This document shows, in pieces, positions 6,315 to 18,143 of a stretch of DNA of 64,000 nucleotides. The notes under the pieces were generated by a model. The model saw only the letters and a program-made list of their open reading frames with translations. It made no database searches and was not told the DNA's origin. The DNA lies in contig NZ_CP030128.1 of the NCBI RefSeq assembly GCF_003568845.1, positions 62,001 through 126,000 on the forward strand, written 5' to 3'. This stretch comes from Indioceanicola profundi. Lineage in GTDB: Bacteria; Pseudomonadota; Alphaproteobacteria; Azospirillales; Azospirillaceae. The position numbers were made by a program, and so were the translations under genes. Position 1 is the first letter of the stretch, and each line of letters starts with the position of its first letter.

Positions 6315-7406
6315 TTCCGGCCCCCTGATTCATTCAATAGATTCGGGGGCATTTCGGCGTTTTGGATCAATGGCTTGCAGGTTTAGTTCACTACAAATCG
6401 CGCCGAAGTTCACCACATGTCGCGCCAATGTCACAGCCCCGGCGGACGTCCCGAAATCCTTAGCGGCCCCTGTCGGCAGGTGGCTGTGGATTCCTTGGCA
6501 CTTGGCCGGCATCGATGATCCAAGGCTGCCGGACTACAACCCCCGCCAAAGTTCCTGGTGCACCGGTGCATATGACCTGCTTGCCCGGCATCGGACGCCG
6601 ATCGGCTCGGCAAGGATTGCTGCCAAGGAAACAGGAGCCTGGCTGGAGTAGGCGCGCCACCGCCGCCCCGGAACCTGCGGCGCCGTCGACCGGTTCGGGG
6701 GACTCAGGGCAGAGATGGCCTGCAGAAACCGGGCGGTAGACAAGATGGAGAGTGGAAGGGCCGGTAACCCGCTGCCATTGCCATTGGATGTCGGCGACTG
6801 TGGGGGGCAGCGCTACGGACGACCACGGGGTCGTCCGCATCTAAACCACGGCGGTGGTCCCGAAAATGATGGGCAACACCCATCAGCCCGTGAGCCAAGG
6901 CATCCTGATCATGCATCCGGGTTCAGGTTGCTCTGGATTTTGGAGCGGCTGCTCTAGGCAAATGTGGTGGAAGCGACTGCCGCGCTGCCAACTCAAGCGC
7001 CCAAGCATATCAGCGCGCGAGTTGGTTCACCGGGAACAGGAGTGATATTCGGACGATAATGTCCATCCTGCTCATGTAGAAAGCCAGGCAGCGGGACAGG
7101 ATGTCCGGTCGCCTTGAGGAGCTCATAGTCGCCGGCGCCCGCATCCAAATTCCGGTTTGAGGATGTGCTCAGGTCCCTGCCGACTGGAGCGGCATGTCTG
7201 AGGACGCCCGTCATGCAGCAGCTATGACAGGATTTCACACCTCCCTATAAACCCACTTTCGTAGACATTGGCGATGTTCTAACGTTAAAGATCGTATAGT
7301 CCGTACACGCATGCCAGTGCGGGGACCGGACCGCGTGGAATGGCCGGAGCGGCCAAGATATGCCCCATCGGCCACTGGCAGCTTCGCTGGCTGGGGAGTA
7401 GCCGCC
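6315..7406. other. Gene-free stretch of about 1.1 kb
   Basis: No open frame on either strand shows a recognisable domain, and frames longer than 100 codons here have frame-shadow composition. The only structure I see is a pair of 22-base direct repeats near 6385. The last 150 bases are more AT-rich and presumably hold the promoter of the diguanylate cyclase gene, but no convincing -35/-10 pair could be fixed. Confidence 0.5.
6385..6428 (+). repeat. Two tandem 22-base repeats
   Basis: Copies at 6385-6406 and 6407-6428 match at 18 of 22 positions and share the cores AGTTCAC and TCGCGCC. GTTCAC-type repeats spaced by about two helical turns occur at the ends of IS21-family elements and could also be plasmid iterons. 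No istA/istB or rep gene is adjacent. I read it as a possible left-over IS end. Confidence 0.5.
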
Positions 7407-9443
7407 ATGAGGACGTTTGCAGACCTTCTTGGCAGCTTGGGTATTCAGCAAGCCACGAGACTCCTAACGCGGCCAGTGCAGTTCTCCCGGCTCTCTCTTC
7501 ATGCCAGGGGTGTTGCCCTCATCCTCCTCGTCTGCGTACTCCTGGTCGGGTTGGACAGCCAGCGGACATGGAACGCCCGGACCGCGGTGATCCGCAGCAC
7601 CGAAGTGGAAACCACCAACCTCGGACGTTCCCTCGCACAGCACGTTCACGGCGTCGTCCAGAGCGCCGACACGTTGCTGCTGGGCCTCTTGGACGAGATC
7701 GAACGGGACGGGCTGTCCGAGGTGGCGATCGAAAACATGCGCGAGCGGATGCTGGCCCGTGTCGGCCAGCTGCCCAGCCTGCACGGGCTGTTCCTGTATG
7801 ATGCCGAAGGCCGCTGGCTTGCGACCTCATTTCCGGCGGCGCCGCTCGCCAGCCGGAACAACGCGGATCGGACTTACTTCCAGTACCACCGTCTGAACAG
7901 AGACCGGCGTGCATACATCGGGCCGGCCGTCCGCAGCAAAACCACCGGCGAGTGGATCTTGACGGTGTCGAGGCGGGTCGATACGGCAGACGGCGGATTC
8001 GCTGGCGTCCTCCTGGCGACCGTCTCGATCGCCTTCTTCCAGAATGCCTTCGACAGCTTCGACGTGGGCCGGCAGGGCTTGATCGTCCTCGGCCACGCCG
8101 ATGGCACCATCCTCGCTCGCAAGCCATTCAGCGAGGCTGCGATCGGGATGGACCTTTCAAAGGGACCGGTCTTCAGCGTCTACCTGCCGAATGCGCCGGT
8201 CGGCACTTACGAGTCCATCTCCCCCGTTGACGGCGTCGGGCGGATCGGCAGCTACCGGCGCGTTGAAGACTACCCGCTGGTCGTGATCGTATCCCGCTCC
8301 GTATCCGAGATGCTGGCCGATTGGGAGCGGGACGCGCTTTTTCGCCTGGCCGCGATGCTGGTCATCGCGGGCCTGATCGCTGTTCTCGGGTTCCGCCTTG
8401 TCAGCCAGGCCCGGCGCCTGAGTGAGGCCGAGGAGCAGTACCGCCTCCTTGCCGAGCATTCGGGTGACGCCATCACCAGCCTCGGCGCGGATGGCATCCG
8501 CCGTTACGCCTCGCCCGCCTATGCAGTGCTCACCGGCCTGCCCGCGGCCATGGCGGTTGGGAAGCAGTGGCAGGAGGGCGTCCATCCGGACCAGCGCGGC
8601 CATGTCGAGGCGGCGATCCAGCGAACATGGTCGGGAGCGGAGACCACGGCCACATTCCAGATCCGCCGCCATGACGGCAGCTACCTGTGGGTTGAGGCCA
8701 AGTTGCGGCTGATGCCAGACACCAAGGTCGGAACCCCGCTGCTGGTGGCGAACATACGCGACATCTCCAGGCGCAAGGCTTTGGAGGAGCGCCTCGAGGC
8801 GGCCAACAGCGAACTGCGCGTGCTGGCCAATGCTGACAAGCTGACCGGCTTGGCCAACCGACGACGGCTGGACGAAGCACTCCGGCTCGAGTGGCGGCGA
8901 ATGGCCCGCAAGGCCGAACCCTTGTCGTTCATCCTGATCGACGTGGATCACTTCAAAGCCTACAACGACCGCTACGGGCATGTGAGCGGCGATCACTGCC
9001 TCGCCAGGATCGGCGCCATCGTCGCCAAGGCGGCCCGGCGTCCGGGCGATCTGGCCGCCCGCTACGGCGGAGAGGAACTCGCCCTGCTCCTGCCCGGCAC
9101 GGACCTGGCCGGTGCGGCCGACGTGGCCGAGGGTGTGCGGGCGGCGCTGGCCCATGCCTCCATGCTGCACGAGGGAAATGGCGGGGGTATGGTCACCGCG
9201 AGCTTCGGCGTGGCGACAATGCACCCCGCGTTGAACCCGGACATGGAGATCAGCATCCACACCTTGGTCTCGGATGCCGACGGGGCCCTTTACGCCGCCA
9301 AAGCGGCAGGACGCAACCAGGTGCGCAGGGCGGCGGAAGGAGTTCCGGAGAACAGTGATGGCGGTTTGCGGGAACCGCCGCCCTCCGGTCAGCCTAAGCT
9401 TCTTCACAGCGACGAGGCACGCCAGACGCACATTTTCGATTGA
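7407..9443 (+). CDS. Membrane diguanylate cyclase (Cache-PAS-GGDEF)
   Basis: Makes cyclic di-GMP from two GTP. From the ATG at 7407 (GGAG eight bases upstream) the protein has 678 residues: a membrane helix near residues 35-50, a periplasmic double-Cache-like sensor to about 305, a second helix near 310-328, a cytoplasmic PAS (about 345-470) and a GGDEF domain. The active site is an intact GGEEL (554-558), and an RxxD inhibitory site (R-P-G-D) lies five residues before it, so product inhibition is expected. Earlier in-frame starts lack a ribosome site and add Pro/Arg-rich residues. It stands alone and probably links an extracytoplasmic ligand to motility or biofilm control. Confidence 0.92.
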   Translation: MRTFADLLGSLGIQQATRLLTRPVQFSRLSLHARGVALILLVCVLLVGLDSQRTWNARTAVIRSTEVETTNLGRSLAQHVHGVVQSADTLLLGLLDEIERDGLSEVAIENMRERMLARVGQLPSLHGLFLYDAEGRWLATSFPAAPLASRNNADRTYFQYHRLNRDRRAYIGPAVRSKTTGEWILTVSRRVDTADGGFAGVLLATVSIAFFQNAFDSFDVGRQGLIVLGHADGTILARKPFSEAAIGMDLSKGPVFSVYLPNAPVGTYESISPVDGVGRIGSYRRVEDYPLVVIVSRSVSEMLADWERDALFRLAAMLVIAGLIAVLGFRLVSQARRLSEAEEQYRLLAEHSGDAITSLGADGIRRYASPAYAVLTGLPAAMAVGKQWQEGVHPDQRGHVEAAIQRTWSGAETTATFQIRRHDGSYLWVEAKLRLMPDTKVGTPLLVANIRDISRRKALEERLEAANSELRVLANADKLTGLANRRRLDEALRLEWRRMARKAEPLSFILIDVDHFKAYNDRYGHVSGDHCLARIGAIVAKAARRPGDLAARYGGEELALLLPGTDLAGAADVAEGVRAALAHASMLHEGNGGGMVTASFGVATMHPALNPDMEISIHTLVSDADGALYAAKAAGRNQVRRAAEGVPENSDGGLREPPPSGQPKLLHSDEARQTHIFD

Positions 9444-10198: not shown

Positions 10199-10247
10199 TT
10201 GACCTGCATCAATGCTCGCTTGGCTGAGGTCTTTTTCAATACAGGCA
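10199..10247 (+). promoter_or_regulatory. FNR/FixK-type box with spaced -10 element
   Basis: TTGACCTGCATCAA (10199-10212) matches the TTGAT-N4-ATCAA palindrome at all but one base. TTCAAT at 10235-10240 lies where a -10 hexamer should be if the box centre is at -41.5, giving a start near 10247, 23 bases before the NTF2-like gene. This is the geometry of a class II FNR-activated promoter. Expression of the radical SAM operon at low oxygen is inferred. Confidence 0.55.
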
Positions 10248-10269
10248 GCTGTATGGGAGTGAACATCAT

Positions 10270-10795
10270 GGACCGAAAAGAAATAGTGCGTAAAAGCCTC
10301 CAGCCGTTCAACAATATCGAGACCATAAGGAAGTATTTCTCTGCCGTAAAGACAATGGACCGGGCGGCCGTCGCAAACAAGAAGTTCGATACGGGCCGTA
10401 TCATGGCTCTATGGCATGAGGACGGGAAGCTCACAATTGGAGGAAAGCCGCTCGGCGGCGATCACTCGTACTCCGGCGCGGATGAGATCTCGGGCTTCTA
10501 CGAGCGCCGAGCCAAAGGCGTCGACGGCGAAATCGCCGTGAATGTCTCCTCCATTGAGGTCGCGAACGCGAAGAGTGCCGACCATGTCGTGGCGAGCGGG
10601 TTGCGCTATGTCGTAACGCACAAGGAAGAAGGCCTGCAGGTGCCCTTCACGCACAATTTCACGCTGCGCGACGGCCGCATCGCCGAATTGCGGATCCACG
10701 TCGGCACTCCGGCCGAATCCAAGATTGCACCGCTAGGCGCGCTACAGATCGAAGATCTTGGCCATCTTTCCGCGATGGCATGGATGGTCGCGTAG
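10270..10795 (+). CDS. NTF2/SnoaL-like protein heading the radical SAM operon
   Basis: A protein of about 174 residues with the pattern of an NTF2-like cone fold: an N-terminal helix with the Met-Ala-Leu-Trp-His segment, the GG-x5-Y-S-G-A-D-E-I-S-G-F-Y stretch and a C-terminal sheet (FTLRDGRIAELRIHVG). The ATG at 10270 follows GGGAGTGAACATC; an upstream in-frame TTG at 10199 falls inside the FNR-type box and is unlikely. The first 100 bases are more AT-rich than the neighbours. NTF2-like proteins bind or transform small molecules. As first gene of a cluster of radical SAM maturases it is either an accessory enzyme or, speculatively, the protein substrate itself. No catalytic residues could be assigned. 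Confidence 0.75.
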
Positions 10796-10797
10796 AA

Positions 10798-10824
10798 GCG
10801 GGCGTAGGGTAAAGCCCGTTTCTC
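10798..10824 (+). terminator. Weak hairpin between first gene and radical SAM genes (possible attenuator)
   Basis: GCGGGC (10798-10803) can pair with GCCCGT (10814-10819) across a ten-base loop and is followed by TTCTC. It starts two bases after the stop of the NTF2-like gene. A leaky terminator here would leave the first gene more abundant than the enzymes. The T-run is poor, so the call is tentative. Confidence 0.35.
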
Positions 10825-10846
10825 GCTCAGCCGAAGAGAGGACGTC

Positions 10847-11896
10847 ATGAAGCTCGGCACGCCACTCTACGTCGTGTGGGAGACCACGCTAGACTGCAAC
10901 GCCCGCTGCGTTCATTGCTACTCGGACGCCGTCTTCGGGCATGGGCCACTTTTCTGGCCTCTCGAGGAAAGCCTGGATCTGATTGATCAACTTGCGGCGG
11001 CGGGTGTCATCATCATTGCGTTCTCCGGCGGAGAATTCCTACTCCGCGACGACTGGGAGATTTTGGTCGAGCGAGCCGAAAGCCGTGGCATGCAGGTTAC
11101 CTTTGCCACGAATGGCCTACGGGTGTGCCAATCCGTCAGCCGTCGGATCAAGGAACTCGGCGTCGCGAATGTAAGCGTCAGCCTCGACGGTGCGACCGCG
11201 GAGGTGCACGAGGCCATCCGACAGGTTCCCGGCATATTCAACAAGGCTTGCGAGGCTGTGCGCAGCCTCGCTGAGGCTGGAGTGCGCGTGACAGTCAACT
11301 ACACGCCAATGCGCACCAACCTTGCGCAGGCGGAAGACTTGATCGCGCTCGCCCATGGGCTCGGCGCAAAGAAAATCAACCTCACCGAATATGTTTACAC
11401 CACCCGGGGGGGGATCAACCTGATGCCGCTGCCCTCGGAACTCGGCGCGCTCATGGCACGCTGGACGAAGGCCGCCGCAGAATGGAAAGGGCGGATCGAG
11501 GTCGACTGGCACGACTGCCGGGTAGCACTCATCCTGCCCGGCGCCGAGGCGGATCCCTACAAGGGATGCGGCGCCGGGTACACACACTGCCGGATCACCG
11601 TCGACCACGATGTGACGCCTTGTGTCGTCCTTCCCCTCCCAGTCGGCAATCTCCGCGAGATGAGCTTTGCCGAGATATGGAGAACAGCGCCCGAACTGCG
11701 GAAAATCCGGGACAGAGGCAATATCCGCGCCGGCAACTGTGCAGGGTGCGAGCATCTCGAGCGTTGTGGCGGCTGCCGGGCTGCTAGCTTCGCCCGATAT
11801 GGTGACGCCTATCTCGGAGACCCTACTTGCTGGATTAGGCCCGACGGTACTGAGGTCGGCAACCGTTTCGTCCCGAATAGGATGGTGCCGTCATGA
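10847..11896 (+). CDS. Radical SAM/SPASM peptide- or protein-modifying enzyme (first copy)
   Basis: A 349-residue enzyme. Cys17, Cys21 and Cys24 (CNARCVHC) bind the [4Fe-4S] cluster that cleaves S-adenosylmethionine, and the GGE motif (FSGGEFLL) follows. The C-terminus is a SPASM region with spaced cysteines (CGAGYTHC, TPC, NCAGCEHLERCGGC and a last Cys near DPTCW) for auxiliary Fe-S clusters. This layout is that of maturases such as AnSME, PqqE and sactipeptide synthases. The ATG has GAGAGGA five to six bases upstream. Its stop overlaps the ATG of the PqqD-like gene (ATGA), so translation is coupled. The substrate is unknown. Confidence 0.9.
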   Translation: MKLGTPLYVVWETTLDCNARCVHCYSDAVFGHGPLFWPLEESLDLIDQLAAAGVIIIAFSGGEFLLRDDWEILVERAESRGMQVTFATNGLRVCQSVSRRIKELGVANVSVSLDGATAEVHEAIRQVPGIFNKACEAVRSLAEAGVRVTVNYTPMRTNLAQAEDLIALAHGLGAKKINLTEYVYTTRGGINLMPLPSELGALMARWTKAAAEWKGRIEVDWHDCRVALILPGAEADPYKGCGAGYTHCRITVDHDVTPCVVLPLPVGNLREMSFAEIWRTAPELRKIRDRGNIRAGNCAGCEHLERCGGCRAASFARYGDAYLGDPTCWIRPDGTEVGNRFVPNRMVPS

Positions 11897-12171
11897 CTGA
11901 GTTCTTCTCGTTCGTTTCGAAGGCGGAGAAGATTCGCTGTCGCCCCGAGGAAGCAGGTAACCATTTGCTCTACAACCCGCGGACCGACCTGCTCCACATC
12001 GTGGACTTACGCGGCAAGCAGATATTCGACCTGTGCGACGGACGCGCGATCGACGACGTCGTGCGCGAGGGCTGCGCCCTGTTCGAGGGAACTGCTTCGA
12101 CGGTGGCGGCCCAGCAGGTTCTAGATTTCCTTTGCGCGCTGAAGAGGCGCGACCTTGTCGTGATGCGCTGA
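11893..12171 (+). CDS. PqqD-like peptide-recognition protein
   Basis: A 92-residue protein matching the PqqD/RRE fold: an N-terminal strand pair (LLYNPRTDLLHIVDLRGKQI), then helices around LCDGRAIDDVVREGCALFEG and a final helix ending in DLVVMR. PqqD-type proteins hold the leader of a precursor and present it to a radical SAM enzyme. It overlaps the upstream radical SAM gene by four bases and ends two bases before the next ATG, so all three are made together. Its presence is the strongest hint that the cluster modifies a peptide or protein. Confidence 0.85.
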   Translation: MTEFFSFVSKAEKIRCRPEEAGNHLLYNPRTDLLHIVDLRGKQIFDLCDGRAIDDVVREGCALFEGTASTVAAQQVLDFLCALKRRDLVVMR

Positions 12172-12172
12172 C

Positions 12173-13621
12173 ATGACGAAAGGACAGATCCTCTTCGTCC
12201 AGCCGCCGGCGTCGTTCAGCAATCCGTCCCCCTGCCTGGACGATAAGCAGTTCGGGCTCGGCATTCTGGCGAACGCAGCTTGGCTGCAAGGTCACGGCTT
12301 TGCGGTTGATGGCATCCACATCCCGCTGATGCTCCACCAGGGCTTCTCGGCGGAGGACGCTATCTCGCTCATTCTCGCCAAGGAGCCGATCCTGGTCGCC
12401 ATTGGGCTGAACTGGGTCCATTTCAGCCACGGCGCCCTTGAGACGGCAAGGCGCCTGCGAGAACGGAGCCAGGACCTGCCGATCGTCATCGGCGGCCAGC
12501 ATGCCGGGCTGTTCGCTGACGAGATAGCCGCATTGGCCGCCGACTGGGTCAACGGCGTCATCCGCGGCGAGGCCGAGGTGCCGCTTCTCCGCTTGGCTGA
12601 GGCCATATCAACGGGAGGAGGCTTTCCGACGGACGTACCGGGACTTCACACCGGCCGTGCACCGGCCCCGCCGCCAAAGGTTGTCGATGAGCTTGACAGC
12701 CTGCCCGTCTACAGCTACCGGAGCCTCAAACCCCGGCCCCTCCGGCCCGACGTTGCGGCAATCTCGACGGCGCGTGGCGCGTGCCCGTTCCGTTGCGCCT
12801 GGTGCATCGAACCCGTTGTTGGGCGGATGCAGGGCCGTCCCAAACTTCGGTTCCACTCGCCTGACCGGATCGTGGACCAAATCGAGGCGTTGACGGCGGA
12901 AGGCATCACCCGCTTCACGATCCAGGATAATTTCTTCGTCGGCGGCGACCGCAAGCTCGTGGCACTCGCTGACGCTTTGATACGGCGAGCTATCCGGCCA
13001 GGGCACCTCAATATCTTCGCTCATCCCGACAGCTTCACGGCCCATGGCATGAGCGCGCTAGCCGCCTGCTGCGAGCTAGGCAGCATCGATTACGGCATCG
13101 AGACCGGCTCGGCGCGGGTTGCTGCCATCAACAACCGACGGCTTAATCCCGACGAGGTCGTGGAGCGCGTCGCCAGCGCTGCCTCGCTTGGCCTTGAGCC
13201 TTATAGCTGGTGGATGGCCGGACTGCCCGGCGAGGACGAAGCAGCGCTCTCTGAAACGGAGGAACTGATCGGGCGGACGATGGACGCCGGCGGCATCCCG
13301 CGTTGGGTGAGCCCACTCATCCTGTTTCCGCAAACGGACATTCACCTCAACCCAGAGCGCTACGGCGTGCGGCGTCGGTTTGAGGGCTTCGCGGACTACG
13401 CGATCTTTTCGGAAATCAGTCTCGCCGAGGCCGTGATGTTTTCGGAGGCCGTTGCGCATGAGACCGCGGAAGCGACACGGGACGAGATCACGGCCGCTGC
13501 GCTCCGGTTGCGCCGCTTCATCGTCTCCAATCTGCACCGCCTCCATCGCGCCTATGAGGGTGCCGCGAGGCCACCTGATCTCGCCGGTGTAGAGGCGCGG
13601 ATCCGGCAGTCATTCATGTGA
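12173..13621 (+). CDS. B12-binding-type radical SAM enzyme
   Basis: A 482-residue protein. Residues about 20-145 form a cobalamin-binding-like Rossmann region (VAIGLNW, then IVIGGQHAGLFADEI and GVIRGEAE). The radical SAM core carries Cys204, Cys208 and Cys211 (CPFRCAWC) and the later DYGIETGS and MAGLPGE motifs shared with MiaB/Elp3-type and class B methylase-type enzymes. The cobalamin-ligating D-x-H-x-x-G motif is not clearly present (nearest DGIHIP at 46-51), so B12 may bind base-off or not at all. Class B enzymes often methylate unactivated carbons or rearrange rings. It sits between the PqqD-like and second SPASM genes. Confidence 0.88.
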   Translation: MTKGQILFVQPPASFSNPSPCLDDKQFGLGILANAAWLQGHGFAVDGIHIPLMLHQGFSAEDAISLILAKEPILVAIGLNWVHFSHGALETARRLRERSQDLPIVIGGQHAGLFADEIAALAADWVNGVIRGEAEVPLLRLAEAISTGGGFPTDVPGLHTGRAPAPPPKVVDELDSLPVYSYRSLKPRPLRPDVAAISTARGACPFRCAWCIEPVVGRMQGRPKLRFHSPDRIVDQIEALTAEGITRFTIQDNFFVGGDRKLVALADALIRRAIRPGHLNIFAHPDSFTAHGMSALAACCELGSIDYGIETGSARVAAINNRRLNPDEVVERVASAASLGLEPYSWWMAGLPGEDEAALSETEELIGRTMDAGGIPRWVSPLILFPQTDIHLNPERYGVRRRFEGFADYAIFSEISLAEAVMFSEAVAHETAEATRDEITAAALRLRRFIVSNLHRLHRAYEGAARPPDLAGVEARIRQSFM

Positions 13622-13634
13622 TGCGAGGGTGAAG

Positions 13635-14702
13635 ATGTTCCGGCCGTCCTTCCCGCTGCACTTCGTGTTCATCCTGGGCTACAAGTGCAACCTCGCCTGC
13701 ACGCATTGCTCGTCGAACGCCGACAGCCATGGGTCGCTGGGGTATTCGACAGCAGAGGCGCAGGCCATACTGCGCCAGATGTCGGCGGTCGGTGTTGTCG
13801 ATGTCGCCTTTTCCGGCGGCGAGCCGCTGCTTCGGCGGGACCTCGAGGAACTGATCCGGTTTGCCCGCGACGAGGGGATGTCGACCGGCACGAGTACCAA
13901 TGGCTATCCCATGACGGGCCGGCGGGCCCGCTCGCTGAAGGTTGCGGGTTTGGACCGGCTGCAGGTCAGCCTTGACGGCACGCGCGAAGCGCATGAGCGC
14001 GTGCGCGGGAGCGGCGCGTTCGACCACGCGGTCGGTGCAATCCGGCGGAGCCTAGATGCAGGGCTGCGCACCCACATCTGTTTCACCGCGATGCGCAGCA
14101 ACGCGCATCTTCTGCCTGAAATAATAGGCATCGCCCTGGAACTCGGGGTCCATGGCTTCAACTTGTCGCAGTTCGTACCGACGGGGCGGGGCGCGGCCAT
14201 CGAGGCGCTAGCGCCTTCGACAGCGAAACGCCTGCTCGAGATCTGGCTCGACGCCAAGATTCGCCATCCGGAGCTACACCTGACAGCGCATTCTTCAGGC
14301 CTCGCAGCGCTTTCGCCCGACGCGGGGAATTGCCGTGGCGGTTGCCAAGCCGGGATCAGCATCGGTTGCATCGCCCCCACCGGGGATGTTACGCCGTGCG
14401 TGATGTTCCCCCTGTCCCTCGGGAATCTCAAAGAGCGGCCGCTCGCAGAGATCTGGTCGACCTCACCCACCGTCAGAACCTTGAAGTCCCGCGAGGTGAG
14501 TGGCGCCTGCGGCACGTGCGCTCATCGCATGCGGTGCGGCGGCTGTCGTGCGGGCGCGTGGGCGATGACGGGTGATATGATGGCGGAAGACCCATCATGC
14601 TGGCTGGCCGATGGCACTGCATCCAAGGCCTGCGGCAGCAATCGGAGAGGCATGGCATGCCGCACATCGTCATCTACTCCCCACGACTTACTCGTGAAGT
14701 GA
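13635..14702 (+). CDS. Radical SAM/SPASM enzyme (second copy)
   Basis: About 355 residues from the ATG at 13635, which has GAGGG five bases upstream; a GTG at 13629 would add two codons. The cluster-binding motif CNLACTHC is at residues 18-25, followed by FSGGEPLL. The SPASM cysteines resemble those of the first copy (CRGGCQAGISIGC, TPC, CGTCAHRMRCGGC and DPSCW), so the pair probably arose by duplication. The two copies differ enough in the middle domain to act at different positions or on different residues. The last 46 bases overlap the tautomerase gene. Confidence 0.9.
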   Translation: MFRPSFPLHFVFILGYKCNLACTHCSSNADSHGSLGYSTAEAQAILRQMSAVGVVDVAFSGGEPLLRRDLEELIRFARDEGMSTGTSTNGYPMTGRRARSLKVAGLDRLQVSLDGTREAHERVRGSGAFDHAVGAIRRSLDAGLRTHICFTAMRSNAHLLPEIIGIALELGVHGFNLSQFVPTGRGAAIEALAPSTAKRLLEIWLDAKIRHPELHLTAHSSGLAALSPDAGNCRGGCQAGISIGCIAPTGDVTPCVMFPLSLGNLKERPLAEIWSTSPTVRTLKSREVSGACGTCAHRMRCGGCRAGAWAMTGDMMAEDPSCWLADGTASKACGSNRRGMACRTSSSTPHDLLVK

Positions 14703-14887
14703 AGATTGCCTGCGCAGAAGCAGTGACACGCGCCTTTGAAAGCGCCACAGGGCATTCTGCTGAGCTTCTAACGATTCACTTTGAGGAGCACTCGTACGAC
14801 AACATCGCTGTTGGAGGCAAGTTGCTGACCGATTCCTTTCCAGAACTTGCTGAGCGGGAAAATTCATACCGCTCCGGACCCACATAG
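14657..14887 (+). CDS. 4-oxalocrotonate-tautomerase-family small protein
   Basis: A 76-residue protein whose ATG is followed directly by Pro (MPHIVIYSPRLTREVK), giving the catalytic N-terminal proline of the tautomerase superfamily after Met removal. The stretch IHFEEHSYDNIAVGGK matches the active-site loop and dimer strand of this fold. GGAGAGG lies about 8 bases upstream. The gene begins inside the end of the second radical SAM gene, so it belongs to the operon. It could isomerise the modified product or a small co-substrate; that role is inferred. Confidence 0.85.
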   Translation: MPHIVIYSPRLTREVKIACAEAVTRAFESATGHSAELLTIHFEEHSYDNIAVGGKLLTDSFPELAERENSYRSGPT

Positions 14888-15045: not shown

Positions 15046-15627
15046 CTATCTGCGGAGCTTTCCCGGGTCGCTCTTCCAAGATTGGAAGCTGGAGTACTCG
15101 TATATCGATTTGTTGACCCGGAGCTCCTCCCGCCCGCTGCCGACGGCCATGTCGGCGTCGACGTATGGGTAGATGCCCAGGTACTCCTGACCGGCGAATG
15201 TGCTGGCCGGTCTCTTTACCACCGGCAGGATCGCGACAGCCCCCTTGCGGCCGTCAAAGAACCCCAACTCCCACGGCATCCACTTCGACGAAGGCGAGTT
15301 CTCGGTATGCATGTAGAGGAGCGATTCAGATTGCAGCATGCGGGTTCGCAGCACGCGGGCGGTGTCCGGCGTGACCGACTCCCGTGACAGCTGCGCGTCG
15401 ACGATCCAGTCGACGTAGACCACCAGCCCCTTGTCCTCTAGCTCCAGCCTGGCCCCGTCCACGAGCTCCGCGTCCTTTATGGAGTGGCTCAGGAACACGT
15501 CGAAGTGATCCGTCCTGGACGCCGCGGCTACGGCCTCGTTCAAGCGCTGGGGAGCCGGTTTGTAGGAACGCTGGAACTCGCGTTGAGCCCTTGCCCTAAG
15601 CCGCTGTTCTGTAAGGAGCGCCATCAT
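15046..15627 (-). CDS. TIR-domain protein divergent from Thoeris
   Basis: A 193-residue protein from the ATG at 15627, with GAGG just upstream; a longer frame to 15750 adds Cys/Arg-rich residues without a ribosome site. Residues about 40-165 are a TIR domain: FDVFLSHSIKDAELVDGARL, then VYVDW, and MPWELGFFDGRKG with the Glu expected for NAD+ cleavage. It differs in sequence from the ThsB next door and belongs to the general bacterial TIR type. It is divergent from thsB across 255 bases, so both may share a control region. I infer a second signal-generating TIR for the same effector; independent function is possible. Confidence 0.8.
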   Translation of the reverse strand: MMALLTEQRLRARAQREFQRSYKPAPQRLNEAVAAASRTDHFDVFLSHSIKDAELVDGARLELEDKGLVVYVDWIVDAQLSRESVTPDTARVLRTRMLQSESLLYMHTENSPSSKWMPWELGFFDGRKGAVAILPVVKRPASTFAGQEYLGIYPYVDADMAVGSGREELRVNKSIYEYSSFQSWKSDPGKLRR

Positions 15628-15706
15628 GTCCCTCGTGCCAGGTTGATCCGCCACGGCGGTCGCCTCGGCAGTTTTCCGCTCCACGGTTAAGAATTTACTG
15701 CCCGCT

Positions 15707-15721
15707 CCGCCGTAACGGCGG
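15707..15721. promoter_or_regulatory. 15-base palindrome in the divergent TIR/thsB intergenic region
   Basis: CCGCCGTAACGGCGG reads nearly the same on both strands (seven-base arms around one base). It lies 80 bases before the TIR gene start and 162 before thsB, a position suited to an operator. No regulator gene is adjacent. Confidence 0.3.
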
Positions 15722-15882
15722 CAACGGCAGGCGGGGCGCCCTCCAGGCATCCGCCGGAGGATACCCCGCTAATGCCCCTGCATCCAGATTGCGCATGACA
15801 ACGTTGGTGCCGGGCATCAGAATGGACGAACGTTGGCCGTCCGTGGGCCCAGTCCCCGGCGGCACGCATACGGGAGTTCGGA

Positions 15883-16569
15883 TTGTCGCGCCTGCTCGGG
15901 ATGGGGATCCTCGCCGCGCTTGGCTACGTCTTCAAGGATGACATCGCCATGTTTTTCAACGCGCCCACCACCATGCGGTGGGTCTATTTCAGCTTCCATT
16001 TTGATCGCGACGTGATGCGGCTGCACCAAGTCAAGAACCACTGGGTGACCAAGCCCAACCGCAAGGAAGCGGGTTACTTCGACGGCTCCCTCGAAGAATT
16101 GGCGAAAAAGGAAGGCTCCGTGGCCGTCAAGCGCGCCATCAACAAGGGTCTGGCCGGATCATCCGTCACATGCGTCCTGATTGGCACCGAGACCTACGAG
16201 CGCCGGTGGGTGCAGTACGAAGTCTTCAAGAGCATCGAGAAGGGGAACGGGATTTTCGGCGTACGGGTCCACGACCTCAAGGACCCCCGGACCCGGAGCA
16301 CGGACCCCGAAGGCCCGAACATCTTTGACTATCTTGGCTACGGCTGGAGCGAGCGCTCCGCCAAACTCGTGCCCAACGTGCTGGAGAACGGGAAGTGGGC
16401 TGTCTACGACGATGCCGACCCTATTCCCGCCTCCTCGGCGACTTACCTGACGGCAGGGACGACTCCCACGCTATCGGACCTTTTTCCTGTTTACGACTGG
16501 GTGCAGGACGACGGGTACAACAACTTCGCGACATGGGTTGACGCGGCGGCAAGACACGCCGGTCGCTGA
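15883..16569 (+). CDS. thsB: Thoeris ThsB (TIR-like, DUF1863 type)
   Basis: A 228-residue protein. From residue 31 it follows the ThsB pattern closely: MRWVYFSFHFDRDV, then NHWVTKPN, SVTCVLIGTETYERRWVQYE with the catalytic Glu, KSIEKGNGIFGVRVH, GPNIFDYLGY and a C-terminal VYDWVQDDGYNNFATWV. ThsB proteins sense phage and make a cyclic ADP-ribose isomer that activates ThsA. I chose the TTG at 15883 because GGGAG lies six bases upstream; this gives a 30-residue extension with a short hydrophobic run absent from classical ThsB. An ATG at 15973 would match the usual start but has no ribosome site. ThsA follows after about 110 bases. Confidence 0.9.
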   Translation: MSRLLGMGILAALGYVFKDDIAMFFNAPTTMRWVYFSFHFDRDVMRLHQVKNHWVTKPNRKEAGYFDGSLEELAKKEGSVAVKRAINKGLAGSSVTCVLIGTETYERRWVQYEVFKSIEKGNGIFGVRVHDLKDPRTRSTDPEGPNIFDYLGYGWSERSAKLVPNVLENGKWAVYDDADPIPASSATYLTAGTTPTLSDLFPVYDWVQDDGYNNFATWVDAAARHAGR

Positions 16570-16679
16570 CCGGCCCACCGGCCCGGGCGCTCGAACATTG
16601 TGCGTCCGAGCCGCCAGGGCGCCCACTGGCCTTGGGGATCCAAGGGCAACATGGCGGGTCCGCAACCAAGGGATTTGCG

Positions 16680-18143
16680 GTGCACAAAGACAAATTCATC
16701 GAGGCGCTCGCGGAAAGGTTCCGGGCCGGAACGATCAGCGTCTTCATCGGCGCAGGCCTGTCACGCCCGGCCATGTATCCCGACTGGGCCGGACTGCTGA
16801 AGGACATAGCGCAGGAGATCGGCCTGGATGCATCGCGCGAGGACGACCTTCCCGGCCTCGCGCAGTTCTACCTGAACCACAAGAGCAACGCGCGCACCCG
16901 CATTACCGAACTGATCGTCAAGGAGTTCCCGGAGAACCGCGGGATTCCCCGGTCGTTCCGCATCCTTGCGCGCCTGCCGATCCCTGAGCTCTGGTCGACC
17001 AACTACGACACGCTGCCCGAGCGCGCCTGGGCCGAGGCGAAAAAGCAGATGGAGGTGAGGCCCAACCAAGCGTCCCTGACCCGGCCACATGCTGGCGCGC
17101 ATACCGTCTTTTACAAGATGCACGGCACCGTCCGGGAACCGGAAGGCATCGTGCTCGCGAAGGAGGATTACGAGCTTTACCGGGCCAGGAGACCCGGTTT
17201 CATCCCGTTGCTCACGAGCCGCCTCACCACGACGAGCATGCTGTTCCTGGGCGTCGGCTTCCGGGATCCAAATCTCTCGCACGTGTTCGCGGCCATCCGC
17301 GAAGCCAATCCGGACCGTAACCATCAGTCGCATTTCACGATCCTCCGCAGGCCCCCCAAACCGCAGGGCGGGGGCAGGAAAGACCGGGAGAAGCATGAGT
17401 ACGACACGAAGCGCCACGAGCACCTGGTGAGGGACCTAGCCCGCTACAGCATCGAGGTTCTCGAGATCGACCGTTTCGACGAGATCGAGGAGGTGCTTGC
17501 CGCGGTCGAGCGGCGGCTCTTCCTCGAAAGCGTCCTCGTCTCCGGCAGCTTCCCCTTGCATGACACCGAGCCCGGCGATCCGCTACGCCGCAAATTGCTG
17601 GTAGAGACATCCACCGAGCTTGGTCGCCTCCTCGCTTCCAGCGGCAAGCGGATCGTGAGCGGCTTTGGCCTGACCGTCGGCGCCGCGCTCCTGTCCGGCG
17701 CCCTTGAGGAACTCTACGCGGCGGGTTCGCCCAACCTGGACCGGTCGTTGCTGTTGCGGCCTTTTCCCCAGAGCGGGCCGAACCTCGCCGACCTTCAGGC
17801 CCGCTACCGCGAGGACATGCTCGCCCAGGCGGGCATCGTTGTGTTCGTCGGGGGAGAGAAGGACGACGAGGCCATGGGCGGTGGTTCGCGGAGGATCACC
17901 GCGAACGGGGTCATTTCGGAATTCGAGGCGGCAGCGGCCTCGGGACGCCACGTCGTCCCGTTGGGCGCCACGGGCGGCGCTGCCGCGCAGATAGCTGATC
18001 GCATAGCGGACGATTACGACCGCTACATGGGGGCGCTGCCGCGCGCCCTCTTCGACGCGCTCAGAGCAACTGATGCGTCCGGACGCCAGCTTGCCAAGGC
18101 CGCTATGACCGTGGTGGACTGGTATTCCAGCCGCGGAAGCTGA
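16680..18143 (+). CDS. thsA: Thoeris ThsA effector (SIR2-SLOG NADase)
   Basis: Depletes NAD+ when the SLOG domain binds the ThsB signal, stopping infected cells. From a GTG at 16680 (AAGGGA about six bases upstream) the protein has 487 residues, close to the 476 of Bacillus cereus ThsA. The SIR2 part shows GAGLS (24-28), STNYD with Asn108 and KMHG with His148, the pair equivalent to the known catalytic Asn112/His152. The SLOG part begins near residue 295 (VSGSFPL), with IVSGFGLTVGAALLSG and later GATGG. An in-frame ATG at 16632 would add 16 residues with no support. It completes a type I Thoeris locus. Confidence 0.93.
   Translation: MHKDKFIEALAERFRAGTISVFIGAGLSRPAMYPDWAGLLKDIAQEIGLDASREDDLPGLAQFYLNHKSNARTRITELIVKEFPENRGIPRSFRILARLPIPELWSTNYDTLPERAWAEAKKQMEVRPNQASLTRPHAGAHTVFYKMHGTVREPEGIVLAKEDYELYRARRPGFIPLLTSRLTTTSMLFLGVGFRDPNLSHVFAAIREANPDRNHQSHFTILRRPPKPQGGGRKDREKHEYDTKRHEHLVRDLARYSIEVLEIDRFDEIEEVLAAVERRLFLESVLVSGSFPLHDTEPGDPLRRKLLVETSTELGRLLASSGKRIVSGFGLTVGAALLSGALEELYAAGSPNLDRSLLLRPFPQSGPNLADLQARYREDMLAQAGIVVFVGGEKDDEAMGGGSRRITANGVISEFEAAAASGRHVVPLGATGGAAAQIADRIADDYDRYMGALPRALFDALRATDASGRQLAKAAMTVVDWYSSRGS

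Follow-up and report, generated by a model that had tools for sequence, protein, structure and literature searches.

In mycofactocin, the maturase modifies the C-terminus. Among ribosomally synthesised and post-translationally modified peptides (RiPPs), proteusin leaders comprise a folded enzyme-like domain, a Pro-rich linker and a disordered end (PMC10858898), in triceptides the enzymes crosslink a Trp with the beta carbon of residue i+2 (PMC11002830), and ApyD C-methylates the Tyr adjoining the C-terminus of a RiPP (PMC10635010). The cluster considered here, from Indioceanicola profundi, lies at positions 10199-14887 of a 64,000-nucleotide stretch of contig NZ_CP030128.1 (positions 62,001 to 126,000; the whole analysed stretch is referred to as the window) and encodes an NTF2-like protein, three radical S-adenosylmethionine (SAM) enzymes, a PqqD-like protein and a tautomerase. 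It was compared with related clusters found through its B12-type radical SAM enzyme (type I, to which the window belongs) or through its NTF2-like protein (type II). The comparison suggests that these genes probably constitute a low-oxygen-induced RiPP-like maturation system, in which the NTF2-like protein is itself the ribosomal substrate.

The gene cluster and its candidate precursor

The short precursor gene expected next to such enzymes was not found. No short gene common to the relatives is present in the gaps between the genes or within 600 bases on either side, and the printed part of the locus comparison reveals no shared precursor gene among the open reading frames (ORFs) of at least 30 amino acids. 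The original prediction, made from the letters of the window, had stated that no precursor was visible and had proposed a neighbourhood check for a conserved small gene; this check, run on the relatives, returned none. The statement holds for short genes, but it overlooks a candidate in the cluster itself, the NTF2-like protein with its conserved C-terminal tail. On the sequence comparison, the missing precursor is most likely this protein, which the original prediction had already singled out, along with any small peptide, for mass spectrometry. The features of the cluster are as follows:

10199-10212, forward strand: FNR/FixK/NnrR-type box TTGACCTGCATCAA, its centre 62 bp 5' of the NTF2 ATG, matching 9 of 10 consensus positions
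10268-10795, forward strand: NTF2/SnoaL-like protein, proposed precursor (SnoaL_2 Pfam E=1.9e-7)
10742-10792, forward strand: conserved tail LQIEDLGHLSAMAWMVA, residues 159-175 of the NTF2-like protein, with invariant columns and a predicted local distance difference test score (pLDDT) <50
10847-11896, forward strand: SPASM1, radical SAM/SPASM maturase with intact CX3CX2C motif (Pfam; in a clade with type II SPASM1, support 100/99)
11893-12171, forward strand: PqqD-like protein, predicted RiPP recognition element (RRE) (PqqD Pfam E=4e-5; AlphaFold2 pLDDT 88)
12173-13621, forward strand: B12-type radical SAM enzyme (CPFRCAWC), in type I only (Pfam radical SAM E=5e-12)
13635-14702, forward strand: SPASM2, second radical SAM/SPASM maturase (CNLACTHC) (Pfam; in a clade with type II SPASM2, support 92/95)
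14657-14887, forward strand: 4-OT/DmpI-like tautomerase with conserved Pro1, in type I only and absent from locus L002 (DmpI NCBIfam E=4e-15)

The NTF2-like protein consists of a folded domain (residues 1 to about 147), a Pro-containing linker and the conserved tail. In all 13 clusters of a thin alignment (the window, seven other type I and five type II) the C-terminus conforms to the consensus LxxxDxGxL(S/A)xxAW(M/A/P)V(A/V)-COOH. Seven of the 17 tail columns, namely L, D, G, L, A, W and V, are invariant, compared with 14 of 140 elsewhere in the protein (p=0.0023); residues Y23, W49, Y78 and H129 of the NTF2 domain are invariant too. Comparison of the two types gives 49% identity over the final 17 residues and only 22% over the rest of the protein. 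The tail codons differ at synonymous positions, so that the protein sequence, not the DNA, is held constant. Among type I clusters, 28% of the columns of the NTF2-like protein are invariant, fewer than in any other protein of the operon (30-57%). Its final five residues are nevertheless the same throughout, whereas the other five proteins differ at their ends, except for the QSF of the B12 enzyme. The DxGxL motif is proposed as a recognition site and AWMVA as the core.

The AlphaFold2 model, computed from a thin alignment of 8 rows (mean pLDDT 67), predicts an NTF2 fold for the domain, with pLDDT <50 at residues 150-175. The model of the PqqD-like protein (pLDDT 88) finds as its top matches in the PDB the RREs of lasso-peptide systems with bound leaders (TbiB1-leader), PqqD and the PbtF RRE. 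Together with a Pfam match above the cut-off, this model points to a leader-binding RRE.

All six ORFs are on the forward strand and carry the domains named earlier (Pfam, NCBIfam). The radical SAM domain is recognised in the two SPASM proteins with E=2.8e-23 and 9.9e-22, the B12-binding domain match of the B12 enzyme reaches 29.8 bits, slightly below the Pfam cut-off of 32.1, and the tautomerase is matched by both Pfam (E=8e-5) and the NCBIfam DmpI-like model (E=4e-15). The CX3CX2C motifs are intact in all three radical SAM enzymes. The packing of six same-direction genes given in the original prediction was recovered in full, as were its overlaps, an ATGA shared by SPASM1 and the PqqD-like gene (11893-11896) and 46 bases shared by SPASM2 and the tautomerase (14657-14702); the junction of the PqqD-like and B12 enzyme genes amounts to 1 base. 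The predicted reading frames are likewise present, but two of the starts needed attention. For the NTF2-like protein the most likely start is ATG 10268 rather than TTG 10199, because orthologue alignments support the former and the latter sits within the regulatory box; for SPASM2 it is ATG 13635, where its orthologues start.

Distribution of the cluster and its upstream box

A search with the B12 enzyme against 84,980 species genomes yielded eight loci. The same six genes in the same order are found in a Bauldia metagenome-assembled genome (MAG), in Pseudovibrio (four loci) and in a Rubrivivax MAG; an Opitutaceae MAG has five of the six, the tautomerase alone missing, and the contig of a Lysobacteraceae locus begins within the B12 gene. 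The recurrence of this gene set in unrelated genomes is more than chance. Scattering of the genes in relatives, which would have counted against the original prediction, was not observed, and its description of a RiPP-type radical SAM maturation cluster without a classic short precursor is supported.

The proteins of the window are 78-85% identical to those of Rubrivivax, while no second copy was found in the genomes sampled from the window's class and order, its own genome being the only one with the cluster among 385 of the class and 82 of the order, and the only one matched by the NTF2-like protein among 398 genomes of the phylum. Horizontal spread is the best explanation of this patchy distribution. 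A phage origin was rejected, there being no viral relatives, and among plasmids no full-length relative of the B12 enzyme and none of the NTF2-like protein was found. Flanking DNA is dissimilar between loci except within Pseudovibrio, and the printed part of the comparison holds no genes outside the core that are common to different genera, one weak match excepted. In the window, the cluster is directly followed by a Thoeris-type defence system (15049-18143), which comprises a ThsB-like TIR protein (15049-15750, reverse strand), a second ThsB (15883-16566) and ThsA with SIR2 and STALD domains (16632-18143). Upstream lies a dCache-PAS-GGDEF diguanylate cyclase (7311-9443), which is not among the genes common to relatives. 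A decayed copy was found in a Pseudovibrio-family genome (L016, G841:C2:256000-272000), with NTF2 and SPASM1 broken, the B12 gene truncated, and SPASM2 and the tautomerase not found. In a P. denitrificans draft (L009:8661-11447), the SPASM1 and B12 genes are both interrupted, each by a frameshift that may be a sequencing error.

Profiles of the NTF2-like protein, applied to a sample of <2,000 genomes, revealed five distant relatives, each adjoining a PqqD-like gene and two SPASM genes. The gene order is SPASM1-PqqD-SPASM2-NTF2 in L021, L022 and L030, and SPASM1-PqqD-NTF2-SPASM2 in L028 and L029. In about 1,400 genomes, all NTF2-like homologues over the thresholds adjoin these cluster genes, and the RRE-type protein is kept in every complete cluster. 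In the phylogenetic tree, SPASM1 of types I and II forms one clade (100/99), as does SPASM2 (92/95); both enzymes therefore predate the split of the types. Since neither the B12 enzyme nor the tautomerase is found near any of the five type II genes, the sequence comparison places both outside the minimal system. Some operons begin with an additional gene: an ABM-like small protein directly after the FNR-like box in L021 (12063-12368, reverse strand) and likewise in L022, upstream of SPASM1 (start at 12995, reverse strand), and a glyoxalase/VOC-family gene in L003 (2292-2714, type I) and L029 (1313-1741, type II).

Accessory genes of this kind are what a small-molecule pathway might employ, namely the tautomerase, the glyoxalase/VOC genes (L003, L029) and the ABM-like genes (L021, L022). 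In such a pathway the NTF2-like protein would be a SnoaL-type cyclase or isomerase that acts with the tautomerase on the radical SAM product of an unlinked substrate, and its conserved tail would have a structural role, such as covering the pocket of the other subunit in a dimer. Membership of the SnoaL_2 family agrees with this, as do the nearest folds, which are those of enzymes: the model matches 303 solved chains at E<=0.001, with PhzA/B and TerC foremost. However, all complete clusters retain an RRE-type protein, a module that binds peptides, the tail is more conserved across types than the domain although unordered in the model, and type II keeps the tail without the tautomerase and the B12 enzyme. 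A small-molecule pathway is thus considered unlikely. No characterised small-molecule neighbourhood was matched by the cluster, a match that would have overturned the original prediction.

In 10 of 12 operons a strict TTGAYNNNNRTCAA box lies <=150 bp from the first gene, and in an 11th an equivalent box matches 9 of 10 positions; the chance of a strict box is <=0.002 per promoter. As the flanks of different genera show no other relationship, selection probably maintains the box. Its consensus is common to FNR, FixK, ANR and NO-responsive regulators, so the signal would be either low oxygen or nitric oxide (NO), and the presence of an FNR/FixK-type box ahead of 10 of the 12 operons suggests that expression is probably anaerobic. 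A link with denitrification as a requirement was rejected: strong nirK or nirS matches over the cut-off occur in 9 of 13 host genomes, and that of the window has no NirK over the cut-off and only weak Cytochrom_D1 matches.

The same box and the same nine hosts might indicate a tetrapyrrole pathway akin to that of heme d1 or to an alternative heme route, the more so as the top NCBIfam scores of SPASM1 and SPASM2 are to AhbD, TIGR04053 and NirJ2 (179-204 bits). These scores are nevertheless far below the cut-offs of 395-500, at less than half of them, AhbC, AhbD, NirJ and TIGR04053 form a clade of their own with both SPASM proteins outside it (support 97/97), the window's genome has no NirK over the cut-off and only the weak Cytochrom_D1 matches just described, and the RRE and the tail would be left unexplained. 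Membership of the tetrapyrrole enzymes was rejected on the scores and the separate clade, while approximately unbiased (AU) tests do not reject joining, and a pathway of this type appears very improbable.

Proposed maturation of the tail

From the conserved gene unit, the conserved tail, the predicted RRE fold and the upstream box established by the comparison, we infer the role of the tail as substrate, the order of the steps and their chemistry. The NTF2 domain would serve as a folded leader, and the PqqD-like RRE would dock on the tail, perhaps at DxGxL, and bring the SPASM enzymes there. The two SPASM enzymes would then modify the C-terminal AWxVx. The most plausible modification would be a crosslink between the Trp at i and the Val at i+2. 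It is suggested by the invariance of both residues around a variable one, a spacing that fits the geometry of triceptide crosslinks (PMC11002830). Alternatively, the C-terminus would be oxidatively altered, as it is in mycofactocin. In type I only, the B12 radical SAM enzyme would then add a further change, probably a C-methyl group, and the tautomerase would adjust an enolisable product.

Several points weigh against this proposal. The i+2 partners listed for triceptide enzymes (review PMC11002830) do not include Val, and neither a leader protease nor an exporter is found in the cluster core. The AU tests do not reject the grouping of the SPASM proteins with tetrapyrrole enzymes (p 0.12-0.18). 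The tail may become ordered in a dimer, given the thin alignment behind the structural model, and proteins with the predicted SnoaL fold, whose top match here is PhzA/B, are usually enzymes.

The core without protease or exporter would fit a variant in which the radical enzymes build a redox or catalytic group at the C-terminus of the NTF2-like protein, so that this substrate, its tail converted into a protein-derived cofactor, would itself become the finished enzyme. The invariant Y23, W49, Y78 and H129 outside the tail and the low-oxygen control are consistent with it, although the invariant domain residues could equally be structural. We regard the variant as improbable. In its full form, a new peptide- or protein-derived cofactor would arise under low oxygen: an RRE-guided SPASM pair would remodel the W-x-V terminus of the NTF2-fold protein, with a B12-dependent modification in one branch of the family, and the NTF2-fold protein may use the resulting group as its own catalytic centre; this is doubtful.

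If the proposed maturation system is real, the NTF2/SnoaL fold would join the few enzyme domains recruited as RiPP leaders, and such clusters would be expected to escape finders of short-peptide precursors. The small modification site AWxVx would come in two natural branches, with and without the B12 enzyme, and the cluster would stand for a low-oxygen function that is scattered and has spread horizontally.

Comparison with described systems

None of the six genes reaches an NCBIfam equivalog cut-off, in accordance with the original prediction that the combination matches no named pathway, within the libraries searched. No description of a SnoaL/NTF2-like RiPP precursor was found in the open-access literature searched, combinations with SPASM or PqqD proteins included. 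The three radical SAM enzymes would represent the dedicated modifying enzymes of a RiPP-type cluster.

The best NCBIfam relative of the B12 enzyme is ApyD of the aminopyruvatide system, but the score is 94.9 bits against a cut-off of 750, and the cluster has no MNIO, P450 or ApyA-like precursor. For the PqqD-like protein the best NCBIfam relative belongs to GeoRSP, a system in which a SPASM enzyme is likewise paired with a PqqD-type chaperone, yet the scores are 27.3 bits against 100 for the PqqD-like protein and 148.6 and 172.5 against 400 for the SPASM proteins. An invariant aromatic residue at i with a conserved i+2 residue (W-x-V) resembles triceptides, a likeness that is only suggestive; no triceptide maturase family is among the library matches, and Val is not a listed partner (PMC11002830).

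A PqqD-type RRE adjoining a SPASM enzyme is also found in the mycofactocin (MftA/MftB/MftC) and pyrroloquinoline quinone (PqqA/PqqD/PqqE) systems. The SPASM proteins score 142.8 and 154.4 bits against the MftC equivalog cut-off of 265, and 125 and 135.9 bits against that of PqqE (381), and there is no PqqA-like shared small gene. Unlike these systems, the cluster has two SPASM enzymes, a proposed folded substrate of 175 residues and another core, and it lacks MftD/MftF and PqqB/PqqC. With the proteusins and the Nif11 RiPPs the proposed precursor would share the layout of a long, enzyme-like folded leader, a Pro-rich linker and a disordered C-terminus that is modified (PMC10858898). The leader domain is neither nitrile hydratase-like nor Nif11, as its family matches are of the SnoaL type only; the proposed leader is instead of the NTF2/SnoaL fold, the set of modifying enzymes is different, and the proposed core comprises about five residues at the extreme C-terminus.

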